A stretch of 64,000 nucleotides of DNA, taken from the NCBI RefSeq assembly GCF_030384665.1, contig NC_083679.1, forward strand, positions 1-64,000. Reading direction: 5' to 3'. Under the pieces are notes generated by a model. The model was not told where the DNA came from, did no database searches, and worked only from the letters and a program-made list of their open reading frames with translations. The translations under genes were made by a program, and so were the position numbers. Position 1 is the stretch's first letter, and the number at the start of each line of letters is the position of its first letter. This stretch comes from Lodderomyces elongisporus (lineage: Eukaryota; Ascomycota; Pichiomycetes; Serinales; Debaryomycetaceae). Positions 1 to 17,326 of the stretch are shown one piece after another.

Positions 1-490
1 TTCAAGTGCATCCTTACACCGAGTTTCAAGTGCATCCTTACACCGAGTTTCAAGTGCATCCTTACACCGAGTTTCAAGTGCATCCTTACACCGAGTTTCA
101 AGTGCATCCTTACACTGTTTCAAGTGCATCCTTACACCGAGTTTCAAGTGCATCCTTACACCGAGTTTCAAGTGCATCCTTACACCGAGTTTCAAGTGCA
201 TCCTTACACCGAGTTTCAAGTGCATCCTTACACCGAGTTTCAAGTGCATCCTTACACCGAGTTTCAAGTGCATCCTTACACCGAGTTTCAAGTGCATCCT
301 TACACCGAGTTTCAAGTGCATCCTTACACCGAGTTTCAAGTGCATCCTTACACCGAGTTTCAAGTGCATCCTTACACCGAGTTTCAAGTGCATCCTTACA
401 CCGAGTTTCAAGTGCATCCTTACACCGAGTTTCAAGTGCATCCTTACACCGAGTTTCAAGTGCATCCTTACACCGAGTTTCAAGTGCATC
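1..490. repeat. 24-bp minisatellite, about 20 tandem units, truncated at the window edge
   Basis: The array is nearly perfect with period 24. One unit (96-117) is 22 bp because the end of the unit is altered. The last copy breaks off after 13 bases at 490. Since 24 is a multiple of 3, the forward frames stay open and read as 8-residue repeats such as FQVHPYTE or SSASLHRV. The 22-bp unit shifts the frame, so no single frame crosses the whole array in one repeat register. The array could be an intergenic minisatellite or the repeat region of a gene that starts left of the window. The frame after the array runs only about 30 codons before a stop (576) and has no recognisable domain. I favour non-coding. 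Confidence 0.9.
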
Positions 491-2492
491 TCAATCTTAT
501 GCACAGATCTCATCCCTTTCATGGTGACTCTCCGTTAATTGCTCTACTTTTCCATCAACATCTCTCATTTTACTAGACACTTACAATTGAACACCTCACA
601 ACATGCCAACTTTTCTACTTTCTATTACTGTAAGGAATCCATGACTAAACTTACTATATTTTAATTTTCTTGTTAATTGTTATGAATGTCAGCACATGAT
701 TCATCTGCATTTGGTTCAATTTCCAGTCAAATCAGTTCACCAAAATTTAAAAGTGAGTGTTTTGTCAACTTTTTCTTTTTTCCTTGAACAATTTTGACTT
801 GTCTTTAAAGCTCATCACTCATAATTATTTTTCAATCAGTAACATCACCTCCTAGACTATATCAAACTACAATTTTATCTGCTCAATGGATTCTGTATTG
901 GCTCTTCATTAGCTCTACCCTACTTAATCACGTGAAGAGCAGAAACAATGTCAAGCACTGGTGCTACCAACTTTTCTCTCGTCTCCCTCATTAAGTTGTT
1001 CCTGCTTGCCCTGGTTATGTATATAACAAAGTTCATATTTAATGGCCAACGCCTCTACCTTCCATAGACATCTTTTAAAAATAGCTTGCAAGTGTAATAC
1101 ACTGACTATTTTTACACCTCGTTATTACATAGTATCTGTACAGATACCACTCGTTTCATTTATGATATTCGATTTAGACGAAACAATCGCTAACCACTCC
1201 TACAGTAAGTACAATCACTTTGCCTTTTGAATACATTACTCTAGAGTAATTTTGTACACCATTAGAGACTAGGACACTTCATACTTTTACAATTAACCCC
1301 ACTCCATCTCTTTATTTTAACTTCCATGGTCAGAACCTGCTACGAAATATGGCTATGTGATTCCGGTTGCTCGTCTCCATCATCATCACCATCTCCCCTC
1401 ATCGTCAGGCGTGGGTCCGCCAAAACCACTTCATTCTTTCCCTATTCACAAAACTTCAATGCTCTTGTTTTATCGTTCTCCGCTCTAAACTTCCTTCTTT
1501 TTTTGTCTATTTCTCCACAATTGTTCTCAATCTCAACGAGCATCAAAATTGTTAAAGAGCAAAGAAAGAAACAGAAACGGACCAAACTTCTTCTCGCGCA
1601 ATAATCTTGTATGCTGACTCACGTGATGCAGTAAAGAAACTCAACCATAATTGGATTTCAATTCTAATACCACCCCAACACGAAACACCGATTTTTCCAT
1701 GATATACAGACAAGTTATCCTTGTTCTATGAGCACCAAAGAATGTAACTCTACCTTTGAATTTGCTCGATCATTTTTTTTTTTGCTTTCCCAATGTGGTA
1801 GAAAAAAATGTTTTAATGTATACATTAATACATGTACTTTGTGAAGAGTGTGAAGAATCGCAATTTTTTCCATGACACAAGTACCTAAAACACTGGCATC
1901 CTTATAGTCGCTTTTTTCATAATAAACAAACTACTTTTATAAAATGCAATATCTAATGGGATCTGTTCTCTTTCTAATTGTTGTTTTTGTTTTTGTATTT
2001 CTCTGTGACGGTATATTGAGAATTGCATTGATCATTTCTTTCTCTGATCACATTCCTTTTTTTTGGCGCATTTTAATACAAAAATATACGGAAAACAAAT
2101 TAAGCTTTGATATCGAATTCGTGGAAAATTATTGAATCATTAGACTACAAAACTTTCAAATTCTGAATCATACAAGCAGTCTTCACATCATTTATGCATA
2201 GTTTGGCTTTATACTTCTTACTTAATTTTTACTTATACCCACAATTTCTCATTCAGATAACTGCTTCAAAAAAAAATACAACAAACTCATTTCATAATTA
2301 AGCAGTCCTCGGTCCTATAGTTGTACTCATTCGCTATTTACTCTAAACATTACTCAATAATACATATTCATACATAAATAAACACACACAAACACACATA
2401 CACACATACACACATACACACATACACATATACACAATTATAATTATAATACACACACACTAACTCATAGGTTTAGTGTTTCGTGATTGCTA
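491..2492. other. Gene-free AT-rich region between the minisatellite and the SAC7-like 3' end
   Basis: Open frames here are all under 100 codons and low in complexity, and I support none of them. Two items stand out: a perfect 16-bp palindrome at 1132-1147, and a CA/CATA microsatellite at about 2380-2440 in the 3' flank of the next gene. Confidence 0.6.
1132..1147. promoter_or_regulatory. 16-bp perfect palindrome GTATCTGTACAGATAC
   Basis: The sequence equals its own reverse complement. Its 14-bp core TATCTGTACAGATA recurs exactly at 24596-24609, upstream of FAR1. No gene is identified beside this copy, so any role is inferred. Confidence 0.45.
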
Positions 2493-4664
2493 TCACGTCT
2501 TTACATTAGTTGCTACAATCACAGGTTTTCCAATAAGTTCCATCGGACTAGTCTTGGGACTGCTCATGGTACTAGGTGGCCGAATTTCATGAAAATACGA
2601 TTCTTCAGCATCTGACCCTACTCCATCTGAAACTTCGTACTCTACATCAGATTCATCAGGAATGCACTCTGTGGCATTGTGTTTATACCCCATCACGATA
2701 TCCTCGTGTTGTGGTGTAGAACTTAGACTTTTAGAGTGCAGCCCTTGGAACCGAGGAGTTAATTGTTGCTGTTGTTGTTGCTGCTCTTGCATAACCTGAC
2801 TAGATGAGGATGCTGATGCTGCTTCCACTACTGACAGTTGACCTTTCTGTGCTTCCCGCGTGGCTTCTGAGTTGGAAAGAGAGTCTTGTGGCCCAATATC
2901 ATCTGCAGAGGCATTCGCACTTGCACTCGCACTTGCACTTGCACTCGCACTTGCACTTGTTGCAATTGGCGGTGGCGGCGATGGTTCCTTGTGCGATGGC
3001 AACAATTTATACGAATACTGAATCAAAAATTCAACCACTAGTTGTGACAATGCATACTCTTCAGGATCAAGATCATGGTCTGGATGCGAGAGTATCAGTG
3101 GCTGGAAAATGGCAGAAAGGTTGCGTGCACTCATCAAGTTCTGTTTCAGATAGCTTTGTACCATAGCAAGTAAGTCCAAGATGTAGAATAAAAGTTGTTT
3201 CGATGCTATTGGGAGATTGTTTAATAATACTCGGTAGATGTCGATAGCAGTGCGCACATCATTAGTGAGTTTCTTGTAGTTTTTTGCCTTCTTCTTTTTC
3301 TGCTTATTGGAGAAATCTTCTTGACTACTTTGGGGAATGGATAGCAGGAGGGTTGGTTGTTGAAGTGAAGCAGTAATTGTCGAAGCAGGAGCAGTTTGTG
3401 CAGTTTGTGCAGTTTGTGCAGTTTGCGGAGCTTGCGAAGTTGGAACTGCTGAAACTGCTTGAGTATCTGGTAAATTACTTGGTGTAGCTCTCGCGTTGCT
3501 CAGGCTTTCTGCATTCACAGACAGAGCATGATTATCGTTATGACGTCCCATGTTGGCTTCAGTCAACATCTGTGACGAGTCTCCTTCACTTTTCTTTCGA
3601 AGACTCCTCGTTGGATTCTCTGCCTTGTACTTCATATAGCTTATAATTCTAGGTCGTTCTTTCAAAACAACTCTAAACTCCTCATAAACATCAAGCGGAA
3701 TCAATGGTTCTGGTAATGCATTCAAGTACCTTCGCAAGATTGATGCTGCGTCATGAACAGTATACCCATCCCAGATCAACTTCTTACCATAATCAGGAGG
3801 TGTATTGAATATAACTTGCAACTCCTTCAATCGTTTTGAAGAGCCACCAACACGAAATATTCCTTCAACTGTCAATCCATTCTTTTTCAAGTATACTCCG
3901 CACTTGGCAACCACAATGGGTATTTCACCATACTGCAAACCACTCGTCTGGTCATCTGATGATAACACCGAGATCTTGGCTGCTGCCTCGGAAAGCGCTT
4001 GTTGTAATGGTACACCAAAATACTTTGAGTTTTCGTCAACTAGCGAATTGCTCTGCAAAAAGGAGTCACGACGATTTCGTATACTATTCTCGGAGTTGGA
4101 TCGTACTCTAGACACATTGTTTGTTGATCTCAGTTTGTGGTTCAATATAGGTCGCAAGAAATCGTGCGTTGATGATGATGCAGTCGGCGAAGTGCCCAAA
4201 TAATTCGAAGTTGAAAAGCTCGACTGCGCATTATTGTGCAGCAGTATCGACTGTCGCTGGTGGAAAGGCAGTGGGATATAGTTTGATGGAGACGGGGAGA
4301 TTGCTCCCGGCTCCAAGTTCCCACTGATACTCGATGACATTGGGATGCTGTTGCTGTTAATGTTGCTATTGTTGTTTGTGTTGGATGGAATATTCAACGG
4401 ACTTCGCTGTGGTTGAAGACGTGGCATCTGTTGCTGCTGTTGTTGCTGTTGTTGTTGCTGCTGAAGTTGCTGCAGTGATGAAGACGGAACTATTGATGGA
4501 AATGCTCCTGCATTTATCAGTTTCGTGGGTGAAAACTTTGAACTGGCATTGTCTGAGTCGCTAATCTCATTAACTGAGTCATTGGATAAAAGATGTGATC
4601 GTTTCAAACTCTTGGCCCATCCAAAGATGGATGAGCTCCTATTGGGAGATGAGGAGTGGCTCAT
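2493..4664 (-). CDS. SAC7: Rho GTPase-activating protein, Sac7/Bag7 type
   Basis: A 723-aa RhoGAP. In budding yeasts the Sac7/Bag7 family switches off Rho1, restraining cell-wall integrity signalling and actin organisation. The RhoGAP domain starts near residue 213 (YFGVPLQQAL). The arginine finger is R271 in GIFRVGG, followed by PPDYGKK and ILRRYLNALPEPLIP. The second half (residues about 467-558) carries LMSARNLSAIFQPLILSHP, which is very like Sac7. Between the halves, residues about 345-465 are a Ser/Gln/Ala-rich insert with an AQT repeat, so the catalytic domain is interrupted in sequence but should fold as one. The N-terminal half is disordered with a polyQ tract. The C-terminal part has an Ala-Ser repeat and a second polyQ tract. 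The ATG at 4664 is the first in frame. It is placed in Sac7/Bag7 rather than Rgd1 or Lrg1 because there is no F-BAR or LIM domain. Next to CSA1 in C. albicans as I recall. Confidence 0.9.
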   Translation of the reverse strand: MSHSSSPNRSSSIFGWAKSLKRSHLLSNDSVNEISDSDNASSKFSPTKLINAGAFPSIVPSSSLQQLQQQQQQQQQQQQMPRLQPQRSPLNIPSNTNNNSNINSNSIPMSSSISGNLEPGAISPSPSNYIPLPFHQRQSILLHNNAQSSFSTSNYLGTSPTASSSTHDFLRPILNHKLRSTNNVSRVRSNSENSIRNRRDSFLQSNSLVDENSKYFGVPLQQALSEAAAKISVLSSDDQTSGLQYGEIPIVVAKCGVYLKKNGLTVEGIFRVGGSSKRLKELQVIFNTPPDYGKKLIWDGYTVHDAASILRRYLNALPEPLIPLDVYEEFRVVLKERPRIISYMKYKAENPTRSLRKKSEGDSSQMLTEANMGRHNDNHALSVNAESLSNARATPSNLPDTQAVSAVPTSQAPQTAQTAQTAQTAPASTITASLQQPTLLLSIPQSSQEDFSNKQKKKKAKNYKKLTNDVRTAIDIYRVLLNNLPIASKQLLFYILDLLAMVQSYLKQNLMSARNLSAIFQPLILSHPDHDLDPEEYALSQLVVEFLIQYSYKLLPSHKEPSPPPPIATSASASASASASASANASADDIGPQDSLSNSEATREAQKGQLSVVEAASASSSSQVMQEQQQQQQQLTPRFQGLHSKSLSSTPQHEDIVMGYKHNATECIPDESDVEYEVSDGVGSDAEESYFHEIRPPSTMSSPKTSPMELIGKPVIVATNVKT

Positions 4665-6730
4665 CTTGGTTGCTTAGTCGTTGAATTGATGGGTGAATAA
4701 GTTTTCGTGGAGGTCTGAACGTGCGAAGGTGTGGGTAAATGAAATAGGAGTAGAGACTGTGACTCCTATCAATCAATAGATTTTAGCAGTTGCTGATAAA
4801 TAAAGATGGAGAAGCTTAGTTTATGGATATCTTGTTGCTGTGCTTGTGTTATCAAATAGTCCTTGTCAAAAGGAATTTGACAGAAACTTGAGATATATTT
4901 CAAACTAGTTGGTTTGCTACTTTAGTGATGAATCTACAGCAAAAAGTTGGTATATTCTTATGGTGTAGAAATTAAATATTTTTGGTTTTGTTTACATGTG
5001 TGGTTTTCTCCTTCTCAGGCTGTGACTCTCGCTTTATTTTTTATTTGTATTTTTAGTTTATTTATTTATTTTTTATTCATTTATTTTTTATTTATTTTTT
5101 ATTTATTTTTATGTTTCTCTTTTTGTCACACACTCACTTTCTTTTTTTCTTTTGTCCTGTTTTGTACAAAATATGTTCAAATTTGTGTAATCCACGTCTT
5201 CAACAGTATGTACTAGAACGTGAAGAAAGGCTACTCAAACTCTCTCCTCATCCTGAACCAATACACTCTAGTCAACTCAATGCGTAGTTTTCTCCAGTAG
5301 CTCCAATAGCTTTGGTGAGGACTTAAGCGCCAGTGAGAATTTTAGAGTAACATTCATCTTTTTAATTTTTTATTATATTCATAATAGGAAGATTCATAAC
5401 TCAGGCAAAGCAAGAAGAGCAAGATACAATTGAATACTACCAACTATTAAGCAAATGATATAAAACATTTTCCACCTATGTCCTTCCTAAAGTAACTTAC
5501 AAGCTGCTTCCTCTGCAGGTCAATCTAACCCCGTCGCCGCTGCAACTGCTACTACTACTACTACTACCACAACCACTATTAAATGCTTTATTTATTTGAC
5601 CTTGTTTGCAAACTCTGAGCCAGTTTCTATTTATACTTCGACATTATAATCTTGTATTGACACTTTTAGACAACTTCTAGTATACATACATGTATATATA
5701 AATTAATATATAAATCAATATATATATATATATACATATATATAATTCGATGTCAATATACTACTTAGCCTGACGAATGCTATTGTCGTGTCCTAGAACA
5801 CATTACACACTTCAATAGTGATTGACGATGCCGTCTATTGTCAACTATTATCTGTTGTCATTTCCGCAATTTACATGCACTGTCTCAATTTGTCTCAATT
5901 TATTTCAAAGTAGGCAACGATATAAACAATGACACAAAAACTAAATATAGGTCTTTGCGGACCAAAAAAAAAATAATAATATTTGAGGTCTAGAACTGCC
6001 CCGCAGACCTCAAGTGAGACTACACATCACGACGAAAATTAATTCTACCAGGGGGCACGTACTTTGGAAAACTCAAAAAAAAAAAATGGAGAAAAATATA
6101 AATAAAAATAAAAATTAAAAAAGGCGAGAGGAAAAAAAAAACACACACGAATCTAAGTGGTGTAAAGTAGAACTACAACAACCACAACCACAACCATTAA
6201 TTCATTCTCACTACAAATGGATCTAGATTTTTTTCAATTTTCGACACGACACTCGTAGTTTTGCCAGGTCACGTGAATAAACAGTCGTACAAACGTCAAT
6301 TCAGTATACACCAATCCTAATATTATCTTTTATTTAAAAAAAGTTTATATCTTTCTTCTTTGTTTCTTCTATTTTAAATGTCACCACACCTTCTTTTCCA
6401 CAATTTCGAAAGACCCCTCTAATTGAATAATCTCTTCTACAAATATCCCATTTAGTTTACTTTAGTTCAGTTTTTTTTTTGAAAAAAATTACTATTTATT
6501 GTTTTGAAATCTAATTCTCTACTTGAAAAATTATTTATACAATTTTTGAACCGAAAAATGAAATAACAAAAAGTGGCCGTGAAATGTAATAGACACACAC
6601 CACTTGAAGAAGGGTATAAAAGAGAGGGAAAAAAAGAGACCAATGATACTTTCTTCAATCAATCACACTGAAGAATTCAGTAGACGTTGAGAAAGAACAG
6701 AAAAAAAAAGGGGGCAAGGGTTCAAACTCA
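4665..6730. other. 2.1-kb intergenic region, promoter side of SAC7
   Basis: The 5' end of SAC7 and the 3' end of the CFEM gene flank this region. It is AT-rich, with T-runs, a TA-dinucleotide stretch near 5690-5750 and an E-box CACGTG near 6272. No supportable gene was seen; the longest open frames are low-complexity. Confidence 0.6.
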
Positions 6731-9700
6731 TCAGATCAAGAATCCAGCAAACACAGCTATTGTGGATGCAAGCATTGCAAAGGATGAAGTGCCAATTTGT
6801 CTTGAAGCACCATTAACAGCAGCAGCAACTGTTTGTGCTGCGCTTCCTTCAGAAGTTCCAGAAGCAACAGCTACATTAGTTTCAGATCCTGCAGTGGCTC
6901 CAGCCTGCTCTCCACCAGTAGTAGTTGAAAGAGTTTTACCTCCAGCAGCAACTGTTGGTGCATTACCTTGCTGAGCAGCTTGTCCAGCACTTTCAGAACC
7001 TTGCTCAGCACCTTCGGTACCTTGTCCAGCACTTTCAGAACCTTGTTCAGCACCTTCGGTATCTTGTTGAGCACCTTCGGAACCTTGTTCAGCACCTTCT
7101 GTACCTTGTCCAGCACCTTCTTGAGATGCTTCACTAGTTGAGCCTTGACCTTGTTTACCAGTAGATTCACTAGTTCCTACATTTGCACCAGTTTCTTGTG
7201 CAGCGGCACCACCATTGACGCCGCCAGTGGCTGCAGTCTTGTGTGCTTGAACAGTGACATTCTCAGTGACGGTGGTTGTAACATCCACAGTTACACCGAC
7301 TTCAGCAGCTGATGATTTGGCTGCTGACTCAACACTGGCAGCATGCGCAGCCTCTTCACTGGCTTGGGAAGCTTGTGCAACAGCACTTTGAGCATGAGCA
7401 ACTGCCTCAGACGAATGTTGAGCCTTGGCTGCACTCATTTGTGCTTCAGCAGCAGATTGTTGAGCAGCAGCAGCAGAGGTTTGAACTGCAACAACAGACT
7501 CATGTGTAGAAATGATGGCCTTCAAGGTACTTTGGGCACCCGCTTCAACCAGACTAAGTGAACTTATAGCACTTTCACAGCTTTGCACAACCTCTGTTTT
7601 GGTAACCTTAGCTGCACTTTCTTTCACGCTCTCAAGTGACAGGATAGCCGATTCACAAGACACAATGACTGTGATGATTTCCTGCTCATGTACCGTCAAT
7701 GTAGACTGCACAGCAGCAGCGCTTGTTTGTTCGCAGCTTGCTTCAGACTGCACTGAGCTGGCTGACAGTTGGGCACAGTACTCAGTAACTTCAGTGACAA
7801 TTATGGTGGTGGTGTAGACAGAGGTTGATCCGGATTTGTCGGTAGTAGTGACTTCACTCAACACTGTGGATGTAGCGGGCAATGAAGTCTCATCACCCAG
7901 AGTAGTTTCAGTAGCAAAAGAGCCAGAGCCAGAGCCAGAAGCTGTAACATCTCCTGTAGCAGACTGCTCTTCACTTTCCTCACCAGTAGTTGTGGCTCCA
8001 GATGATCCTGTTTCACTTGCATCTCCACCTTCACTTGTTTGAGTGTCACCGTCCGATGTTGGACCAGCAGATGTGCTGCTTGTTTCCGGGGTAGAGTCGA
8101 CTTCTGAGTTGAGTTCAACACATCCTTCGCGGTTCTTCACAGATACAACGTAACCAACCTCAGCAGGACATGCATAAAAGGTAACAACTTGATCATCACG
8201 TTTCGTGAATGCTGGAGAGTCAGATGGTAGCGTCAATTGGTTATCAGTCATACCCCATCCGGTAGTAGCCTCTTCCGCATCATCAACAACAACCAAATTA
8301 CCAATTTCATCGACCTTGACGTAGCCACCAGCCAACAAGTGGAGCAATCCGTCATCTAATTCAAACAATGCTTGAACTCCATCAAAGAGCTTAATATGTG
8401 TACCATTGGATTCAAATACAGCAGTTTCATTTAAGAAGCTAACAGATACTGAGAAGCCATTAGCAGACTCAGTTGGCTCCAAGTCATCAGTAGTAGCAGA
8501 TCCAGAAGCAGATTCAGAAGCGGATCCAGGAGCAGATCCAGAAGCGGATTCAGAAGCGGATCCAGTAGCGGACTCGGACGAGCTAACATCAGAGCCACCA
8601 GTAGTAGCGGATCCAGTTGCGGATTCAGAAGCAGATTCGGTTGAGCTGACATCAGTGCCACTAGTAAGAGTAGGCTCAGAAGTTTCAGTAACATCACCAG
8701 TAAGGCCAGCTGAGGCAGCCGAGTCCAATAACGAGCTAACACTTGCTGGAGGCATCCAGTATGGATCCCAAACACCAGCACTAGAACAGACTGAAGTAGC
8801 CAAAGATCTAGCATCGAGCACGTCCTCTCCGCGACAATTGTCAGCAATACATTCACCAACCAATGCTTGGAACTGAGGCATGATACAGAGACAGCCGGTA
8901 TCCCAGTATGGACATGGGGTGATACCGGTGTTTTGGTACATACATGGCTGAGCACATGCAGGTAATTGGTCATAGATTCTGTCAGCAAAACCATTGATTG
9001 AGGCGGTCTTTGCCACAGATGGGTATTGAGTATATTGGTTACCAGTGTCATCAGAAGTTGGAGCAGATGTGATTAATGAATCGGACGAGGAAGCGTTATT
9101 GGTATTGGATTGTTGACCTGAAGTGATGGAGCTTGAAGTTGATTCTTCAGATGCTTGAGAAGATGACTCTTCAGCAGTAGCAGAAGAGGAGGAAGAAGGA
9201 GAATCACTAGAAGAGGCAACATCGGTGCTTGACGAGGTGTCATCAGTAGTAGTGGCAACGGCAGTAGCAGCATACTCTAATGAAGAACTGATACTAGCAG
9301 GAGGCATCCAGTATGGATCCCAAACACCAGCACTAGAACAGACTGAAGTAGCCAAAGATCTAGCATCGAGCACGTCCTCACCGCGACAGTTGTCAGCAAT
9401 ACATTGGCCAACCAATGCTTGGAACTGAGGCATGATACAGAGACAACCAGTATCCCAGTATGGACACGGGGTGATACCGGTGTTTTGGTACATACATGAT
9501 TTAGCACATTCTGGTAATTGGTCATAGATTCTGTCAGCAAAACCATTGATTGAAGCAGTCTTTGCCACGGATGGGTATTGAGTGTATGGATTATCTGCTC
9601 CAGTGGTGGTTGGAGCCGATGTGACCAATGTGTTTGAAGCAGTCTCAGTAGGAACGGTTTCAGTGTTTTCATCGGTTGTGGTGGTTGTAATGGCGTTGCT

Positions 9701-10825
9701 GTCCCAAGATGCAGTAGCAGCATATTCCAAAGCAGAGGTTACACTGTCATCTGGCATCCAATATGGTTCCCACATTTGGGCACTGACACAGATTGAGGTG
9801 GCCAATGATCTGGCATCCAAGACATCTTCACCATGACAGTTGTCGGCAATACACATTCCGACTGGGTTCTGGAATTGAGGCATCATACAGAGACACTGGG
9901 TATCGTAGTAAGCACAAGGGGATACACGAACGTCCTGTTTTACGCAGGGTTTAGCACACTCTGGTAAACGGTCGTAGATCTTGTCTGCAAAACCATTGAT
10001 TGAAGCTGTCTTTGGGATTGTCACATACCATCCGGAGGAGGTTGAGGAGGTGGTTGGTGCTGTTGTGATCAATGAGTCAGAGGAGGAAGCGGTATTGGAG
10101 GTTGATTGTGTTTCCGAAGAGTCTGAACTTGATTCAAGAGCAGCAGATGATTGGGTGTTGGAACTTGACTCTTCAATTGTCGAATCAGTAGACGATGCTT
10201 CTTCGACAGCAGTAGATGAAGTTTCTTCAGCTTCGGTTGAGGAGGCTTCTTCTTTGGTCGAAGAAGAAGAAGAAGAAGAAGAAGAAGAAGAAGAAGAAGG
10301 AGAATCACTAGAAGAGGCAACATCGGTGCTTGACGAGGTGTCATCAGTGGTAGTGGCAACGGCAGTAGCAGCATACTCTAATGAAGAACTGATACTAGCA
10401 GGAGGCATCCAGTATGGATCCCAAACACCAGCACTAGAACAAACTGAAGTAGCCAAAGATCTAGCATCGAGCACGTCCTCACCGCGACAGTTGTCAGCAA
10501 TACATTGGCCAACCAATGCTTGGAACTGAGGCATGATACAGAGACAACCAGTGTCCCAGTATGGACATGGGGTGATACCTGTGTTTTGGTACATACATGG
10601 TTGAGCACATGCAGGTAATTGGTCATAGATTCTGTCAGCAAAACCATTGATGGAGGCGGTCTTTGCCACAGATGGGTATTGAGTATACTGGTTACCGGAA
10701 TTATCGTCAGCAGCTGCAGCAGGTGCTGGTGCATTGGTGATACTTGCAGCGTCTGATGAGCTTGAGCCATCGGCACTCACGAGGGAAGCCAAAACGAATG
10801 GAATTACAAATGAACTGAGCTTCAT
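6731..10825 (-). CDS. CSA1: CFEM-repeat GPI-anchored heme-binding surface protein (CSA1-like)
   Basis: A 1364-aa cell-wall/membrane protein. It has a signal peptide (residues 1-19), four CFEM domains at about 55-140, 271-357, 421-507 and 604-692, long Ser/Thr-rich spacers, a Gly/Glu/Gln/Ala-rich repeat near the C-terminus, and a terminal hydrophobic tail (FAMLASTIAVFAGFLI) typical of GPI attachment. Each CFEM domain keeps the cysteine ladder and an Asp in the DTxCLC motif. In C. albicans Rbt5/Csa2-type CFEM proteins that Asp is the axial heme ligand. Domains 1, 3 and 4 are almost identical, while domain 2 is divergent (CVKQDVRVSPCAYYDTQCLC). Known role of the family: taking heme from hemoglobin or albumin and passing it across the wall. 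The multi-CFEM architecture matches C. albicans Csa1. The ATG at 10825 directly precedes the signal peptide. It is divergent from the FRP gene, its likely membrane partner. Confidence 0.93.
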   Translation of the reverse strand: MKLSSFVIPFVLASLVSADGSSSSDAASITNAPAPAAAADDNSGNQYTQYPSVAKTASINGFADRIYDQLPACAQPCMYQNTGITPCPYWDTGCLCIMPQFQALVGQCIADNCRGEDVLDARSLATSVCSSAGVWDPYWMPPASISSSLEYAATAVATTTDDTSSSTDVASSSDSPSSSSSSSSSSSSSTKEEASSTEAEETSSTAVEEASSTDSTIEESSSNTQSSAALESSSDSSETQSTSNTASSSDSLITTAPTTSSTSSGWYVTIPKTASINGFADKIYDRLPECAKPCVKQDVRVSPCAYYDTQCLCMMPQFQNPVGMCIADNCHGEDVLDARSLATSICVSAQMWEPYWMPDDSVTSALEYAATASWDSNAITTTTTDENTETVPTETASNTLVTSAPTTTGADNPYTQYPSVAKTASINGFADRIYDQLPECAKSCMYQNTGITPCPYWDTGCLCIMPQFQALVGQCIADNCRGEDVLDARSLATSVCSSAGVWDPYWMPPASISSSLEYAATAVATTTDDTSSSTDVASSSDSPSSSSSATAEESSSQASEESTSSSITSGQQSNTNNASSSDSLITSAPTSDDTGNQYTQYPSVAKTASINGFADRIYDQLPACAQPCMYQNTGITPCPYWDTGCLCIMPQFQALVGECIADNCRGEDVLDARSLATSVCSSAGVWDPYWMPPASVSSLLDSAASAGLTGDVTETSEPTLTSGTDVSSTESASESATGSATTGGSDVSSSESATGSASESASGSAPGSASESASGSATTDDLEPTESANGFSVSVSFLNETAVFESNGTHIKLFDGVQALFELDDGLLHLLAGGYVKVDEIGNLVVVDDAEEATTGWGMTDNQLTLPSDSPAFTKRDDQVVTFYACPAEVGYVVSVKNREGCVELNSEVDSTPETSSTSAGPTSDGDTQTSEGGDASETGSSGATTTGEESEEQSATGDVTASGSGSGSFATETTLGDETSLPATSTVLSEVTTTDKSGSTSVYTTTIIVTEVTEYCAQLSASSVQSEASCEQTSAAAVQSTLTVHEQEIITVIVSCESAILSLESVKESAAKVTKTEVVQSCESAISSLSLVEAGAQSTLKAIISTHESVVAVQTSAAAAQQSAAEAQMSAAKAQHSSEAVAHAQSAVAQASQASEEAAHAASVESAAKSSAAEVGVTVDVTTTVTENVTVQAHKTAATGGVNGGAAAQETGANVGTSESTGKQGQGSTSEASQEGAGQGTEGAEQGSEGAQQDTEGAEQGSESAGQGTEGAEQGSESAGQAAQQGNAPTVAAGGKTLSTTTGGEQAGATAGSETNVAVASGTSEGSAAQTVAAAVNGASRQIGTSSFAMLASTIAVFAGFLI

Positions 10826-12299
10826 TGTGTGTGAATGTGTTCCCTTTGTTCAGCAAGTTGATACTTTATGACTAAGTAAGCGAGTGAGTTAGTGAGTTAG
10901 CGAGTAGATATGTTTACAACTTTTATGCGTTTCTATTGTGTTTTCACTTTTACAAGATCTGGGCAAACATGGTCTATTATATGCTGCAAAGATTCTGGTT
11001 GATGGGAAAATTCTTCTCTAGCTTATTTTTATTTTTTATTTCTTATGTTTTTAAATTGGTTTTGATTTCGGTTTTGCAGCCTTAAATTACCGCACGGGTA
11101 TTGCCTTGATCTATGGCCGTTGCCAATTTCCTCCAATGAGAAGTGAGTCCGGTAACTGCAAATATAAAAGAACAGGAAAAAAGAGATAAGAAGGCTCTTG
11201 ACCCTCTAGGTTACTAATTTCCAAGTCAAATTATTTTTATTTAAATTTTTTATTTAAATTTTTATTTTTAATTTTCAAGAATAAGAAGAGGGACAAAAAA
11301 AAAAGAGTTTCGTATGTTACTCTTTGCCTTCTTTCTACCCCCTCCCCCCCGCCGCCAAAATAAAAGGACAATTCCGATTATCAAGTATGAGCTGCTCAAT
11401 ATTGGTTATGAACAATGGAGAATTACAAAGAAAATGAAATGAAGAACAAAAAGAAGAGGAAGGGAAAGTGAAAATGTAGTAATTCTTTTTTAGTCATGGT
11501 TGCAAATACTTAACACAATTGACTTTGTGCACTATTTTTGCAGTAACTTTATTAAGATTTTTCTTGCACTCTTAATCATTTTTTTTTCTCTCTCTTTTTT
11601 TCTCTATTATTTTGTCATTTATGGTAACTTTATGTGCAATCAATTTTTTATTCCAAAATTAAAAAAAAAAAAATCGCGATTGAAAACAGTACAAACCCTT
11701 ACAAATATTATATAACAGAGGAGTGTTGCAGGTGCAATGTAGTTTGGTATCGCGTCAACTAGCATCAACTGAAGGGTTTGAGTGAGTGTACGTCATTACA
11801 TAGATATTCAAGACTTTCCCTCTTCTTCTTCCCTCTTTTTCTCTTTTTCTTTACAGATAAATATGTGCCTGTGTATATATTGAGTTGATTGGGTGTGCTT
11901 CATCTTTGGCTTTGCAAATAATTGCCTAGGATAAAATTGCAAACAAAACAAACAAAAGAACATTTCACACTAAATGGAAATCATGGTTTGAGCAGGCACC
12001 TTGTAGCATCAATAACGCGTAAAGTATAAGCTTTTTCAAAGCAACAACAATAATAATAATAACAACATTATACAATCACGAGAGAAACTACAACAACAAC
12101 AACAACCACCACCACTACAACAATAAATACATCGGCTATATGTGCATGTGCAGCAACAATGTCAGCATTGTCAATAGTAGCAAAAATGGGAGACGGTTTG
12201 CAGCATTTCATGGAAGGTCCGAGTGCAACAATTGGTTGTTTTTAATGAAGATATGTTTCCCAATTGTTTTTTTTTTTCTTGTTCTTCTTGTTCTTGTTG

Positions 12300-12338
12300 T
12301 TTTGTTTTGTTTTGTTTTGTTTTGTTTTGTTTTGTTTT
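12300..12338. repeat. (TTTTG)n pentanucleotide microsatellite
   Basis: About eight tandem copies of a TTTTG unit in the intergenic region between the CFEM and FRP genes. Confidence 0.9.
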
Positions 12339-12715
12339 CCAATTTTTATCTGTAGTACTTTGCTTTTTTTTCTTTAATCTCTTTGTCTCTAGTTTCGTAA
12401 TTCTTTCAAACCCGATAACTTCATAGTGTTGCATCGGAAATGAACTATAGGTGGAATTCTTTTAGTATTTGCAGATAGTGCATGACTCTAACATGCCTTT
12501 GTCAAGCTTTTTTTTAAAACTTTGAAATAACAATTAGCAATAGGTAATATAAAGTGTTAAGTAATGAGCAATTGACTTTCAATCACTAAATCCATCCTCT
12601 CTTCTACGAATATCAAAGGTTAAGGAAAAAGAAAGAGGATTAGGGAAAAGGCAAAAAAAGTATGCATCACGTGTCTCTTGTTTCTCTTTTATTTCAGTTT
12701 TTGTGTCACTGATGG

Positions 12716-12724
12716 ATCTGATAA
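12716..12724 (+). promoter_or_regulatory. Putative GATA-factor site ATCTGATAA (Sfu1-type iron repressor)
   Basis: An exact match to ATCWGATAA, the consensus of fungal iron-responsive GATA repressors (Sfu1/SreA/Urbs1 family). It lies between two likely iron/heme genes. Function is inferred from position and consensus only. Confidence 0.5.
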
Positions 12725-13783
12725 CTTTGATCAAAATTTCTCATTTTGTTTTTCTCCGTTTCCAAATTTTTTATTTTTATTTTCGTATCCTTTGATTCCC
12801 TTTATTGTTTTGTATCACACATACAAATGCTTCAACTGACATAAATAAAAAAATACAGGACTAGAGGACAAAAAAAAAAGGCTTAATGGCTCAATGGCTC
12901 AATGGCTTAAGGGCTAAAGGGTCCATTCCTCTCTTTTCTTTCTGAATGTATATATAAAAATGAAGAGAAAAAATAAGTGACGTTTTGTTCTACAAGACCA
13001 TTGGGGAAGGAATAGATTAGAAAAGAAAGCCCTCTTTAAGGAGCTTTAGGGCATTAATAAGAGAGGAAAAAAGCAAAGAAAAAATGAGAGAGAATAAAAG
13101 AGAATACTAATAACTAAAAATAAGTTGTTAAATCATTATAGTGAAAAAAGAGAAAGAGTTCGTCGTGTTTGATATAAAAGGGAAAGTTGGTGATGAAATC
13201 AAGAAAAAGAATTTGTTCCTTCTTTTTCTTTTTTTCTTTTCCATTGGATGTCTTTAATTACTCTTGTAACTGTTGTTGTAGCTGCTGTTGTTGTTGTAGC
13301 TGCTGTTGTTGTTGTAGTAATCTCTTTTTCTCTCTCTATACATTTCACTCTAGTATCAATATCTATATATGCAATAAGTATTACCAAGAAAAACTGTAAA
13401 ATGTTATAGAGACAATTCTTTCTAATAACAATATTAAGATACAATTTTTGGCAAACATAATTTGCTCAAAGTAGTAGTGAGCACGAAACAACTTCCTATT
13501 GGCTAATTGTGTTAAGCTACAGAGACAAGTTCGGGAATAAGCTATTCGGGATTATCGCTGTTTTCGCTTAAATCGTTTTTAGAGCTACCACACACAAACA
13601 CACAAACTCTCTCTGTCTCGCACTCTCTTGGCTTCCTCTTTATTATTTGTTTGCATGTATTTTTTCAAGTTTTATGTTTTTTGTGGCATTTTCATATTTG
13701 TATACAGCCCCATACTGTATTCTTTTTTTTTCCTTTCTCTCCCAATATTTTTCTTGGAGATGAAATTGTATGCAAAAGATGTA

Positions 13784-13792
13784 ATCTGATAA
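13784..13792 (+). promoter_or_regulatory. Second putative GATA-factor site ATCTGATAA
   Basis: A second exact copy of ATCTGATAA in the same divergent region, 1.4 kb upstream of the FRP start. Confidence 0.5.
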
Positions 13793-15169
13793 TCTAAATT
13801 TACAAAGAAGAAAAAGGACAATAGGAGCCAAAAAAACACTTTAATTTCGCAAACTTGAGAAAGTGTTATGATATACAATTCAAAATGGTGAACATTTGCC
13901 AATAGAGATCATTACTCCAGTACTCCAGTACAGAGATGGCAATACACAAGCTATTGAGTGCAAACTATACATACTTTTAACATATATATATATTATATAT
14001 ATGAACATGGCAAACAGAACAAACAACTGATGCGGCTAAACCAATATCCTCATATGTATTCTCTCTTCTTTTATTGCTATCCTTATTTACTTATTTACTT
14101 GATGGCATACTATCTTTTCTGCTCCTGCTTTGCTTTGCCATGTAGCTTTTGCAACCAACTTCAGCTCAGCCAAGTTACGACGACATCTGATTACTATTGT
14201 ATTTTTTTTTTTATTTATGTTTATTTTCAGCCAGTCACAGCAGTTGTAATACATTTATCCACTATACTCTTGGCACGCTGTTTTCGCATCAAGAGGATAG
14301 GAAGAAGGAGAACCTGTGTCCTTGGAACAGATGCAAAAGAAACATCCAAGAAGTTCAAGAAGTTCAAGAAAGCTTATGAGGATGATGATGGTGATGACGG
14401 TGGTGGTGAGTGAACTTGCCAGTAGTTGAATGTGCACACTTTTCAACACAGCCTTTCTGGTTTTTCTTTTCTTTGTTTCTTTTCTTTGTTTCTTTTCTTT
14501 CTCTTACTAAGCCCCTCCACATTTCACGGCTTATGCTCCCGCTGACACTGCCGTTGCTGCACACTCTTCTGTAACTCTTCTTGCTCTCTCTCTCTTCTCT
14601 CTCTTTCTCTTTTTTTCTGCTACACAAGAGATGTATATTTTATTTCATTTCAACTCATTCTATTATTTTTTTTCTGGGCAAAATCAATACTCATATTGTC
14701 TGTCCGTAAAGGTCTCATTGAACCAAAAAAAAACAACAACATACACACACACAATACACAGCACTTGGGATTGGCAATTGTCTTTAATGAAGAAGGAGGA
14801 GAAATGAAGTATAGGTAATCAAAGAAATGAGTTTTTAAGTAAGACTTGAGACTTGAATGTAAGTTTTTTTCTTCTTTTTCTTTTTTCTTTTTTCCTTTTT
14901 CTTTCAATGAATAGGTATTTCTGATATATCTTTAGCACATATACTCAGTTTCCAATAATCATATAATCCTAGATCATCTCCACAACTTTTTTGTTTTTTC
15001 AAAATCAGTTTTTTTGTTCATTTTTTATTTTCATGTTTCTTTAAGATTGCCTTATTTTGCTTAACAATTCATATATTCCAATCTACACATCTTATATTGA
15101 TTTTAGAAACTCAAACACAGACTATTGTTATACTCACAACCAAAATAAAATAGAAACTAACAAGCAAAG

Positions 15170-17326
15170 ATGAGCACTACTACTTCCTCCTCCACCACCA
15201 CCACCACACTATCAGTGGATATGCAAAAACTGCTTGAAGCTGACAGAAACACCAAGTACCAATGGGAAAGTTGCATCTTTAGTTTGGTCATATTCGTAAT
15301 CAATGGGATCCTCTTCTTTTGGATCCCCAGAAACTTACGACAAAAGAGGTACACCAAATCCAATAGATTTAAACCATACTTTATTTGGCTAAGTATTTGG
15401 AACACCATCAACTCATCATGGTCAATCAAAGTATTTAGCAAAAGATACTTTTTCAAACCAACCATCTTAATCTTGTTTCTATTCTACATCTTACTCAATG
15501 GTAAACTCTGCTACCACAACACCGACGACATTGTTTACATCCCCAGAATATTTGTGGTTGCAAAAAGATGCGCAAGAATCGGTATTGCCCAAATACCTGC
15601 CATTTTTCTTTTGGTCACCAAGGGTGACTTTATTACCGGTATCACAGGCTTAACCTATGAAAGAACAACTTTTTTACACGTTTGGTTCTCATTTATGATG
15701 TTTGTTGTCGTTACCTTCCATGTAGGTGTTGTATGCTACTACTGGGCAAGTCCCGTATACCAAGACTTGCACCCAAAGTACCCCAAGAATGCCTATGGTA
15801 TATTGGCATACGTTACATTTGTATTCTTGGCCCTCGGCAACATAAAACTCATTAGAAAATTATCCTTTGACTTGTCAATGGTCCACCACCGTGCACAATC
15901 ATTTATCATGTTGCTCATGGCATTCTTTCACAACAACCACGCCAAAGCCATGGTAATTATCGGTGTGCATTTGCTTGTCTTGGACAAGGTCATTGGCAGA
16001 ATTTACGGAATTGTCCACGGCATCAAATCTCCAACTAAAGGATGGTCAGAGTTTGAAATGTTGGATGAGGAAACAATGAAGGTTTCAATCCCCATAAAAG
16101 TCAACCACAAATTTAACCCAAACTCATGGTTTGGTCTTATCAAGTTCAAATACGGCAACTGGAAAGCTGGCTCCCACATCTACTTTAACGTTCGAAAGAT
16201 TGACTTTTTCCAACACCATCCATTCTGCATCTCAAGCTTACCCGATAGCGGCAAGATGGTTCTCATTATTAGAAAGAAAAACGGATTCACAAAGAAAATG
16301 TTTGAAAAAGTCAAAGACTTGCAACAAAAACAGATTAATGGAACTCAAACTGAAGATGACTACATTCCAAAATACAGAATGAAATACAACCAATTGAAAA
16401 ACAAATACTTTAAAAAGAACAAAGCTGCAACCAATACATCTGAAGAAGAAGAAGAAGAAGAAGAAGAACAGCAAACCAAGCTTCCCGACTATAGGAAAAT
16501 AGTTGACCCAAATATCGTTATACTCAAAACTGCATTCCGTGGACCAAGTGGTGCTAAATGCCAACCACTCATCACTTTTGACTCAGTTGCATTTTTTGCT
16601 CAAGAATTGGGTGCAACCTTTGTCTTACCTATAGCCTTGGATCTTTTACAAACCGCAGAGAAGAAAGAAGTAATGAAGGACTACTTGGGGAGACCTCCAC
16701 ACCCTGTATTGAACATTTTCTGGACAGTAAAGACCAAAAAACACATTTTTTGGCTTTCACACATCCTCGATAAGATGTTAAAGTATATACGCGATGGCAG
16801 ATTAACAATCAGTGTGTTTGTATTGGAAAACGATGTTGAAATGAATACTATTGAAATTATTGACGAGAATCCATTTACCCTGGCAGTTGCATCAGTACCA
16901 ACACTGAGACTTGAACTGACACTGACACTGGCACTGACACTGGCACCACCACCACCACTTGTCACAACACCACCCACCAAGAAAGTAACTACTCAAGTAG
17001 AGCAACTCGAATTGAAAAAAACCAATTCCAGTAACCTAAGCGAAGAAGAAGACGAACAAGGTAGAAAAGGAAAAGAAGGAGAGGATGTCAAACCAGATTA
17101 TTCGCTTTTGAATATCAACTATAAGCCACTTGATTCGGATGAGGCATTGCAAAGCCACATGGCTAGTGTTAAATATTCAGACGAGAACCATTTCAGGTCA
17201 ATGGCTGTTGTTTGTTGCGGTGAGGAACACACATTTGGTAAAACAGTGGAGTACAATTTGCAACACTACCGCTGGATAAAACATGCTCCGAACATGTACT
17301 TTTACAACGAGTCTTTTGATGCGTAA
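15170..17326 (+). CDS. FRP2: Ferric-reductase-related heme-uptake protein (FRP1/FRP2-like)
   Basis: A 718-aa polytopic membrane protein of the FRE/NOX superfamily. The first membrane segment starts near residue 36, with no signal peptide and no extracellular N-terminal reductase domain. That absence defines the C. albicans Frp1/Frp2 class, needed for heme use with CFEM hemophores. The ferric-reductase core has two His-x13-His pairs (H170/H184 and H240/H254), enough for two membrane hemes. An FAD-binding HPF motif sits at H350-F352. The NADPH region is degenerate: GPSGAK (458) is present, but the usual glycine-rich AGGTGIT-type loop is AQELGAT (477-483). A nine-Glu run (425-433) and a CTG-encoded Ser/Thr linker (578-592) are insertions in the cytosolic part. 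The C-terminus ends in the FRE-like YFYNESF. Likely function: accepting or transporting heme handed over by the CFEM protein. Assignment to FRP2 rather than FRP1 rests on the CSA1 neighbour (recalled synteny). Confidence 0.88.
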   Translation: MSTTTSSSTTTTTLSVDMQKLLEADRNTKYQWESCIFSLVIFVINGILFFWIPRNLRQKRYTKSNRFKPYFIWLSIWNTINSSWSIKVFSKRYFFKPTILILFLFYILLNGKLCYHNTDDIVYIPRIFVVAKRCARIGIAQIPAIFLLVTKGDFITGITGLTYERTTFLHVWFSFMMFVVVTFHVGVVCYYWASPVYQDLHPKYPKNAYGILAYVTFVFLALGNIKLIRKLSFDLSMVHHRAQSFIMLLMAFFHNNHAKAMVIIGVHLLVLDKVIGRIYGIVHGIKSPTKGWSEFEMLDEETMKVSIPIKVNHKFNPNSWFGLIKFKYGNWKAGSHIYFNVRKIDFFQHHPFCISSLPDSGKMVLIIRKKNGFTKKMFEKVKDLQQKQINGTQTEDDYIPKYRMKYNQLKNKYFKKNKAATNTSEEEEEEEEEQQTKLPDYRKIVDPNIVILKTAFRGPSGAKCQPLITFDSVAFFAQELGATFVLPIALDLLQTAEKKEVMKDYLGRPPHPVLNIFWTVKTKKHIFWLSHILDKMLKYIRDGRLTISVFVLENDVEMNTIEIIDENPFTLAVASVPTLRLELTLTLALTLAPPPPLVTTPPTKKVTTQVEQLELKKTNSSNLSEEEDEQGRKGKEGEDVKPDYSLLNINYKPLDSDEALQSHMASVKYSDENHFRSMAVVCCGEEHTFGKTVEYNLQHYRWIKHAPNMYFYNESFDA

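Follow-up and report, generated by a model that had tools for sequence, protein, structure and literature searches.

A head-to-head CFEM and FRP gene pair near a chromosome end

The 64-kb window analyzed here (C7:1-64000 of Lodderomyces elongisporus NRRL YB-4239, assembly GCA_030384665.1) carries a gene for a multi-CFEM protein and a gene for a ferric-reductase-related membrane protein, which we read as the L. elongisporus orthologues of CSA1 and FRP2, with a role in heme uptake (probability about 0.82). The genome comprises 16,086,460 bases in 8 contigs, among them C1 (3,597,007) and C3 (2,328,861); the total, largest scaffold, and N50 of the L. elongisporus PacBio assembly are given in Table 1 of PMC10586162. 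Inward from the C7 telomere, the order is a RhoGAP-like gene, CSA1, a gap of 4,344 bp measured from start codon to start codon, and FRP2. CSA1 is on the minus strand and FRP2 on the plus strand, so the two genes diverge head-to-head, as a first-pass annotation of this DNA had noted. The nearest upstream in-frame stop stands 3 codons before the FRP2 start and 8 codons before the CSA1 start. The features of the pair are:

6731..10825, minus strand: CSA1 orthologue, 1364 aa (code 12), PF05730 E 8.9e-66, four CFEM domains
10436..10627, minus strand: CFEM domain 1, PF05730, 68.8 bits
9788..9976, minus strand: CFEM domain 2, the divergent one, with 72-73% amino acid identity to the other three
9335..9526, minus strand: CFEM domain 3, PF05730, almost identical to domains 1 and 4
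8783..8974, minus strand: CFEM domain 4, PF05730
10826..15169, no strand: intergenic region from start codon to start codon, 4,344 bp, candidate shared promoter
15170..17326, plus strand: FRP2 orthologue, 718 aa, ferric-reductase-related membrane protein, assigned by profile matches, trees, and an approximately unbiased (AU) test
15572..15931, plus strand: Ferric_reduct transmembrane domain with four heme histidines (residues 170, 184, 240, and 254)
16154..16348, plus strand: FAD_binding_8 match, with HPF retained and HPFT changed to HPFC
16598..16612, plus strand: NADPH loop, residues 477-481, AQELG versus GAGSG in FRP1 of the same genome

All four PF05730 stretches of CSA1 contain the eight cysteines and the aspartate of the DT.CLC motif (the heme-iron Asp), in agreement with the four-CFEM protein first described. 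The protein also has Ser/Thr-rich stretches, a secretion-signal-like N-terminus, and a hydrophobic C-terminus; the two ends, judged by eye, would fit a putative glycosylphosphatidylinositol (GPI) anchor. Domain 3 aligns with the entire chain of the Csa2 structure (4y7s, E 7.9e-48). At third codon positions, domains 1, 3, and 4 agree at 88-91%, and domain 2 agrees with these at 45-51%, a pattern that points to putative recent homogenization or duplication within the gene, with domain 2 excluded. The homologue P0116, which carries the name CSA1 of C. albicans, has 1053 aa in its entry, unlike the 1364 aa of L. elongisporus Csa1. Across 15 CSA1-like proteins, some of whose entries may be partial, the number of D[T/S].C.C motifs runs from one to six per protein, and CFEM domain number therefore varies.

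Domains and family placement of FRP2

FRP2 matches the profiles Ferric_reduct (E 7.3e-20), FAD_binding_8 (9.2e-13), and NAD_binding_6 (1.5e-5), and thus has the three domains and the four heme histidines of canonical fungal FREs. A membrane heme core joined to a dehydrogenase fold of the ferredoxin-NADP reductase (FNR) type is likewise shared with NOX5, NOX2, DUOX, and SpNOX. Unlike FRP2 of the window, FREs have an N-terminal domain, for which Roy et al. inferred a CFEM-like fold (PMC9635878). The first hydrophobic segment of FRP2 lies at residues 34-52 (by Kyte-Doolittle scan only) and its Ferric_reduct match starts at residue 135, compared with hydrophobic segments that start at residues 158-188, after an N-terminal stretch, in the seven canonical FREs of the same genome; one of these seven (C1:2568k) has an extra segment at 29-47. 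The C. albicans Frp2 protein (P0015) also starts early, from residue 19. By this measure, the predicted lack of the extracellular N-terminal FRE domain, reported in the first-pass annotation, was confirmed. Elsewhere in the genome, a weak CFEM match (C4:515030-515197) scores 23.5 bits against a cut-off of 22 and shares its open frame with the reductase domain of a canonical FRE; though weak, it may lend sequence-level support to the published CFEM-like fold of FRE N-termini. Whole-genome profile matches numbered 13 for CFEM, a copy on C6 included (see below), and 12 for Ferric_reduct.

In our trees, the window FRP2 sits within a 100/100 clade of 21 rows that includes P0015, and a 109-row tree, from which 16 of 125 rows had been dropped as near duplicates, fragments, or long branches, agrees. 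P0015 was taken as C. albicans Frp2 because, by hand translation, its 592 aa, its start (MDEELQ), and its end (YNESYET) agree with the FRP2 primers and +1776 fusion that Roy et al. described; P0069 (554 aa, MAIPFDQ start, YCYTESF end) fits their FRP1 primers. A tree of 34 rows that we chose from the 125 split six FREs from all 28 FRP rows at 100/100, the clade labels being our own reading of the trees. Grouping the window FRP2 with the six FREs of its own genome was rejected (p-AU 0.00036), the phylogenetic check proposed with the first-pass annotation thereby bearing out an FRP-type protein, specifically FRP2. Grouping FREs with 8 FRP2 rows gave p 0.031, and grouping them with FRP1 was not rejected (p 0.178), so that the trees do not settle where FREs attach within the FRPs. 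FREs, FRP2, and basal FRP2 together form one side of an existing branch (98/85), a grouping that needed no AU test because the FRE outgroup attaches there. The FRE sample in these trees was 6 to 10 proteins, all from L. elongisporus, and the FRP relatives were recruited by similarity. The FRE at C7:95457, with a split frame, was used only in the first tree, as its first piece; this ferric-reductase-like gene (C7:95457-95819) seems to be divided over two open reading frames (ORFs), at 2962-4029 and 4123-4848 of locus L040, by an intron or a break.

The region between the genes

The following features were found between CSA1 and FRP2:

12716..12724, plus strand: iron-GATA-like site ATCTGATAA (ATCWGATAA pattern)
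13547..13558, plus strand: Hap1-like site with one mismatch, the sole one between the genes and not counted above chance
13784..13792, plus strand: second iron-GATA-like site ATCTGATAA (ATCWGATAA pattern)
14030-14413: predicted ORF of 127 aa, the only ORF of at least 120 aa between the genes

The promoter scan used GATA, CCAAT, and Rim101 motifs. Between CSA1 and FRP2, ATCWGATAA occurs 2 times against 0.10 expected (reached by 3 of 500 shuffles), CCAAT 17 times against 9.45 (9 of 500), and Hap1 half-sites 4 times against 1.15 (11 of 500); GCCAAG is not unusual (84 of 500). Six motifs were tested in two regions, which makes 12 tests and the enrichment weak, and for this reason we take the motifs as only a hint at possible iron or heme control of the pair. 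In the second region, that of a CFEM/FRP pair on C5, GCCAAG (3/500 shuffles), Hap1 half-sites (16/500), and WGATAA (27/500) are high, CCAAT is not (450/500), and ATCWGATAA is absent. The profiles differ, and the two promoters therefore do not follow one common pattern.

Single-mismatch Hap1 sites are in excess in the window as a whole (18, against a shuffle mean of 6.22 and a largest value of 13), but this is not promoter evidence because 9 of the 18 lie inside the CSA1 coding region. The exact site CGGNNNTANCGG occurs 95 times genome-wide versus 269 times for a reversed control pattern, and none was found in C5:400001-416000, the RBT5/PGA7/FRP1 region. Further along C5, a 148-aa single-CFEM, CSA2-like gene (C5:1256482-1256928) has an exact CGGNNNTANCGG at 1257570-1257581, ~640 bp upstream.

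Relation to published CFEM/FRP pairs and heme uptake

Roy et al. (2022; PMC9635878) reported FRP1 beside PGA7 and FRP2 beside CSA1, in head-to-head pairs that share a promoter region; the synteny holds in 75% of genomes for FRP1-PGA7 and 70% for FRP2-CSA1. Both Frp1 and Frp2 were tied to heme uptake in the same work. Conservation as a linked pair, which the first-pass annotation had proposed, is thus on published record. The window pair resembles C. albicans CSA1-FRP2 (orf19.7114 / orf19.7112) in its head-to-head layout, in joining a multi-CFEM hemophore to an FRP without the FRE N-terminal domain, and in having its membrane protein in the same FRP2 clade; it is listed as differing in its place <18 kb from a telomere and in the 4.3 kb between its genes. 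It is one of two head-to-head CFEM/FRP pairs in the genome, the other being the RBT5/PGA7-FRP1 cluster on C5 (C5:408303-413718), made up of two single-CFEM genes and an FRP1 gene:

C5:411646-413718: FRP1 gene, 690 aa, RBT5/PGA7-FRP1 cluster

The CFEM gene head-to-head with an FRP gene is common to CSA1-FRP2, to C. albicans PGA7-FRP1, and to the C5 cluster, whereas the CFEM partners in the latter two are single-CFEM proteins and their FRP1 retains the NADPH loop glycine.

Protein listings, as opposed to DNA, suggest the same linkage in two further genomes, where a CSA1-like and an FRP2-like protein have a longest contig in common (P0119 and P0014, 99,745; P0118 and P0026, both from Spathaspora sp. 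JA1, 197,783). For C. jiufengensis, the longest contigs of CSA1-like P0115 (3,099,340) and of P0009 (215,628) differ, and linkage is not indicated by the protein listings. The P0026 entry joins the FRP2-like protein to a superoxide dismutase, probably two adjacent genes merged in annotation.

Growth of L. elongisporus on hemoglobin and hemin has been reported (PMC7175094), and the genome has one heme oxygenase match (C2:397822). In C. albicans, heme influx into the cytosol is reported to be strongly lowered in frp2-/- cells at pH 8.5, toxicity of gallium protoporphyrin IX (GaPPIX) at pH 7.5 is FRP2-dependent, and both CSA1 and FRP2 are Hap1-dependent with hemin, each being listed with an exact Hap1 motif. 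Csa1 would be a multi-CFEM hemophore anchored in the wall and holding ferric heme, and Frp2 a plasma-membrane and endomembrane protein that moves heme or porphyrin inward. Csa1 may hand its heme to Frp2, and the long region between the genes may coordinate the expression of both. The L. elongisporus genes add one more case to a gene pair already in print, and since both that pair and heme use by the species had been published, the first-pass proposal of a heme-uptake pair is mostly a rediscovery.

Several observations weigh against a tightly coupled unit. The C. albicans csa1-/- mutant is reported to be without detected phenotype, alone or in combination, and frp2-/- to be impaired in growth on heme iron only at alkaline pH; the essential function is carried by FRP1-PGA7, FRP1 being essential for C. 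albicans heme-iron use. The reported low-iron response of C. parapsilosis is uneven, with log fold changes of 1.96 for CFEM6 (CPAR2_300120) and 0.69 for FRP2 (CPAR2_300130, the next tag). At the L. elongisporus locus, a shared promoter would have to span a rather long 4.3 kb and each gene may have its own, WGATAA falls below expectation (6 versus 9.07), and the exact Hap1 site CGGNNNTANCGG was not found between CSA1 and FRP2. Hap1 control of the pair, as read from sites, was dropped on this account, the region holding one single-mismatch site. Of the heme-uptake unit first proposed, the linked FRP2/CSA1 pair stands; its co-regulation in L. elongisporus is hypothetical, and the single capture-and-transfer unit is weak because of the csa1-/- and frp2-/- phenotypes. 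The earlier observation was in this sense confirmed and its interpretation partly supported.

An altered NADPH site in the FRP2 clade

The window FRP lacks NADPH-site signatures that FRP1 keeps, a difference that the first-pass annotation had missed. Cofactor residues were tabulated for 125 proteins and tallied by clade for 122, leaving out two divergent FRE-like proteins on C1 (989k and 3465k) and the plant protein P0114; the tallied rows are not independent, P0003-P0008 and P0058-P0064 being close relatives. HPF and all four heme histidines are retained throughout the 21 Candida/Lodderomyces FRP2 rows. In the NADPH loop, 2 of the 21 still have the middle glycine, the others carrying Asp (12), Glu (5), Asn (1), or Ala (1) in its place, and every row has Gln, Glu, Lys, or His just before this position. 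GP[Y/F] is found in 0/21 and HPF[T/S] in 2/21. In the FRP1 clade, by comparison, the histidines, middle glycine, GP[Y/F], and HPF[T/S] are each present in 24/24. Other FRP-like rows have the middle glycine in 62/63, HPF[T/S] in 63/63, and GP[Y/F] in 50/63, and own-genome FREs have all three in 7/7. Three Scheffersomyces relatives of FRP2 keep all cofactor signatures, and four relatives from the Spathaspora/subhashii branch are intermediate (loop glycine 4/4, GPxG 0/4).

At the loop itself, C. albicans Frp2 reads VAQDYG versus FAAGSG in Frp1, and a profile alignment places the AQELG of the window FRP2, which departs from the middle glycine of all seven canonical FREs, opposite the GAGIG of NOX2 and NOX5. 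In SpNOX, the nicotinamide is reported to be held by XGXGX and CG(S/P) motifs. CG(S/P) is absent from all 21 FRP2 rows, but likewise from all seven own-genome FREs, which have CGH or CAH instead, and its loss was for that reason dropped as a diagnostic of a dead NADPH site.

Relaxed decay of the NADPH lobe was also considered and is unsupported by FRP2/FRP1 distance ratios, which are 1.24 for the membrane part, 1.29 for FAD, 1.19 for the NADPH core, and 1.16 for the C-terminus (45 pairs from ten species, some rows partial). Relative to FRP1, the NADPH lobe changes no faster than the membrane part, and the change thus looks specific. Predicted structures of FRP2 and of the FRP1 protein P0051 (mean pLDDT, the predicted local distance difference test score, 82.0 for the latter) show the same strand-helix at the loop and do not separate NADPH binding from non-binding. 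A change at the FRP2 NADPH site was not found in the literature searched, a scope outside which lay the figures and supplements of PMC9635878 and most subscription papers; in the main text of that paper, "FAD," "flavin," "electron," "catalytic," and "motif" do not occur, and "NADPH" appears only within a reference title.

Interpretation of the role of Frp2

Because Frp2 has a changed NADPH loop but retains the heme ligands of its membrane part, it may serve chiefly as a receptor or shuttle and not as a heme reductase driven by NADPH; we give this somewhat less than an even chance. A tentative extension, and one that we would sooner doubt than accept, is that in Candida and Lodderomyces Frp2 has become a pseudo-reductase, its NADPH electron supply lost after the FRP1/FRP2 split. 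It would keep the two-heme membrane core and a folded dehydrogenase lobe and serve as a heme or porphyrin receptor or relay, with the release of heme from CFEM proteins by reduction left to Frp1. Loss would have been stepwise, the site being intact in Scheffersomyces FRP2 relatives, partly lost in the Spathaspora/subhashii branch, and strongly altered in Candida/Lodderomyces. Two points limit this reading: a specific change would also be compatible with a lobe that can still bind a nucleotide, and the predicted FRP2 fold is intact (mean pLDDT 83.5).

Frp2 could instead be a normal NADPH-dependent heme reductase with a loop tolerant of the changes, one that reduces CFEM-bound ferric heme for release, in line with the suggestion of Roy et al. 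of reductive heme release for both Frps (PMC9635878). We regard this as possible though doubtful: middle glycine, GP[Y/F], and HPF[T/S] stand at 2/21, 0/21, and 2/21 in FRP2 versus 24/24 each in FRP1, the second loop position is Q, E, K, or H throughout the FRP2 rows, and the XGXGX and CG(S/P) motifs are those that reportedly hold the nicotinamide in SpNOX. It is less likely than not, in turn, that the adjacency is an inherited relic, with Csa1 and Frp2 at work in different steps and not co-regulated as a pair in L. elongisporus. The silent csa1 mutant of C. albicans, the unequal low-iron response of the C. parapsilosis pair, and FRP2-dependent GaPPIX toxicity at pH 7.5, for which no CSA1 counterpart was seen in the literature searched, would all fit a relic, but synteny kept in 70% of genomes, the same layout in FRP1-PGA7, and the Hap1 dependence of both C. 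albicans genes with hemin speak against it. That the membrane protein is a true FRE with a lost N-terminus, beside a CFEM gene by chance, is very improbable, for although all three FRE domains are present, the AU test, the 100/100 separation of six FREs from 28 FRP rows, and the likewise early first hydrophobic segment of C. albicans Frp2 run against it.

The chromosome end and its copy on C6

Outside the pair, two features lie toward the end of the chromosome:

1..490, no strand: telomere, ~20 copies of a 24-bp repeat (Tandem Repeats Finder), found at other chromosome ends too
2493-4664, minus strand: RhoGAP-like gene, named by eye

A 24-bp telomeric motif has been reported for the L. elongisporus assembly (PMC10586162), and with telomere repeat at bases 1-490, the window starts at the left end of chromosome C7. 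The RhoGAP-like gene has a 91.5% identical copy at C4:10134-12278, ~10 kb from the C4 left end, and the frames on C7 and C4 are both open (723 and 736 aa).

A second copy of the C7 end is found on C6, where C6:1-10443 and window positions 116-10560 are 99.9% identical, differing by one substitution and at eight places in length. This copy ends inside CSA1, where it directly abuts an internal telomere array (C6:10441-10807) oriented like the end repeat. Both copied reading frames, RhoGAP and CSA1, are broken, and none of the 12 genomic Ferric_reduct matches is on C6. According to PMC10586162, only reads >20 kb were used for assembly, from a data set with a mean read of 13,294 bases, and such selection is expected to favor joined molecules. 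A chimeric-read artefact is probably likelier than a real chromosome-end transfer, and a second CSA1 on C6 as a real duplication was considered unlikely. If the copy is an artefact, the assembly gains a false second, frame-broken CSA1 and RhoGAP.

Implications for two FRP paralogues

A loss of NADPH electron supply in Frp2, if true, would explain why FRP2 does not replace FRP1 and why FRP2, not FRP1, sets the toxicity of the redox-inert Ga-porphyrin at pH 7.5. It would separate two roles, heme reductase and heme receptor, between which the 2022 work did not decide for Frp1 and Frp2, and would give a reason for keeping two paralogues. Heme exit from a CFEM hemophore and its entry into the cell could then be tested by comparing two proteins distinguished by a defined cofactor site.

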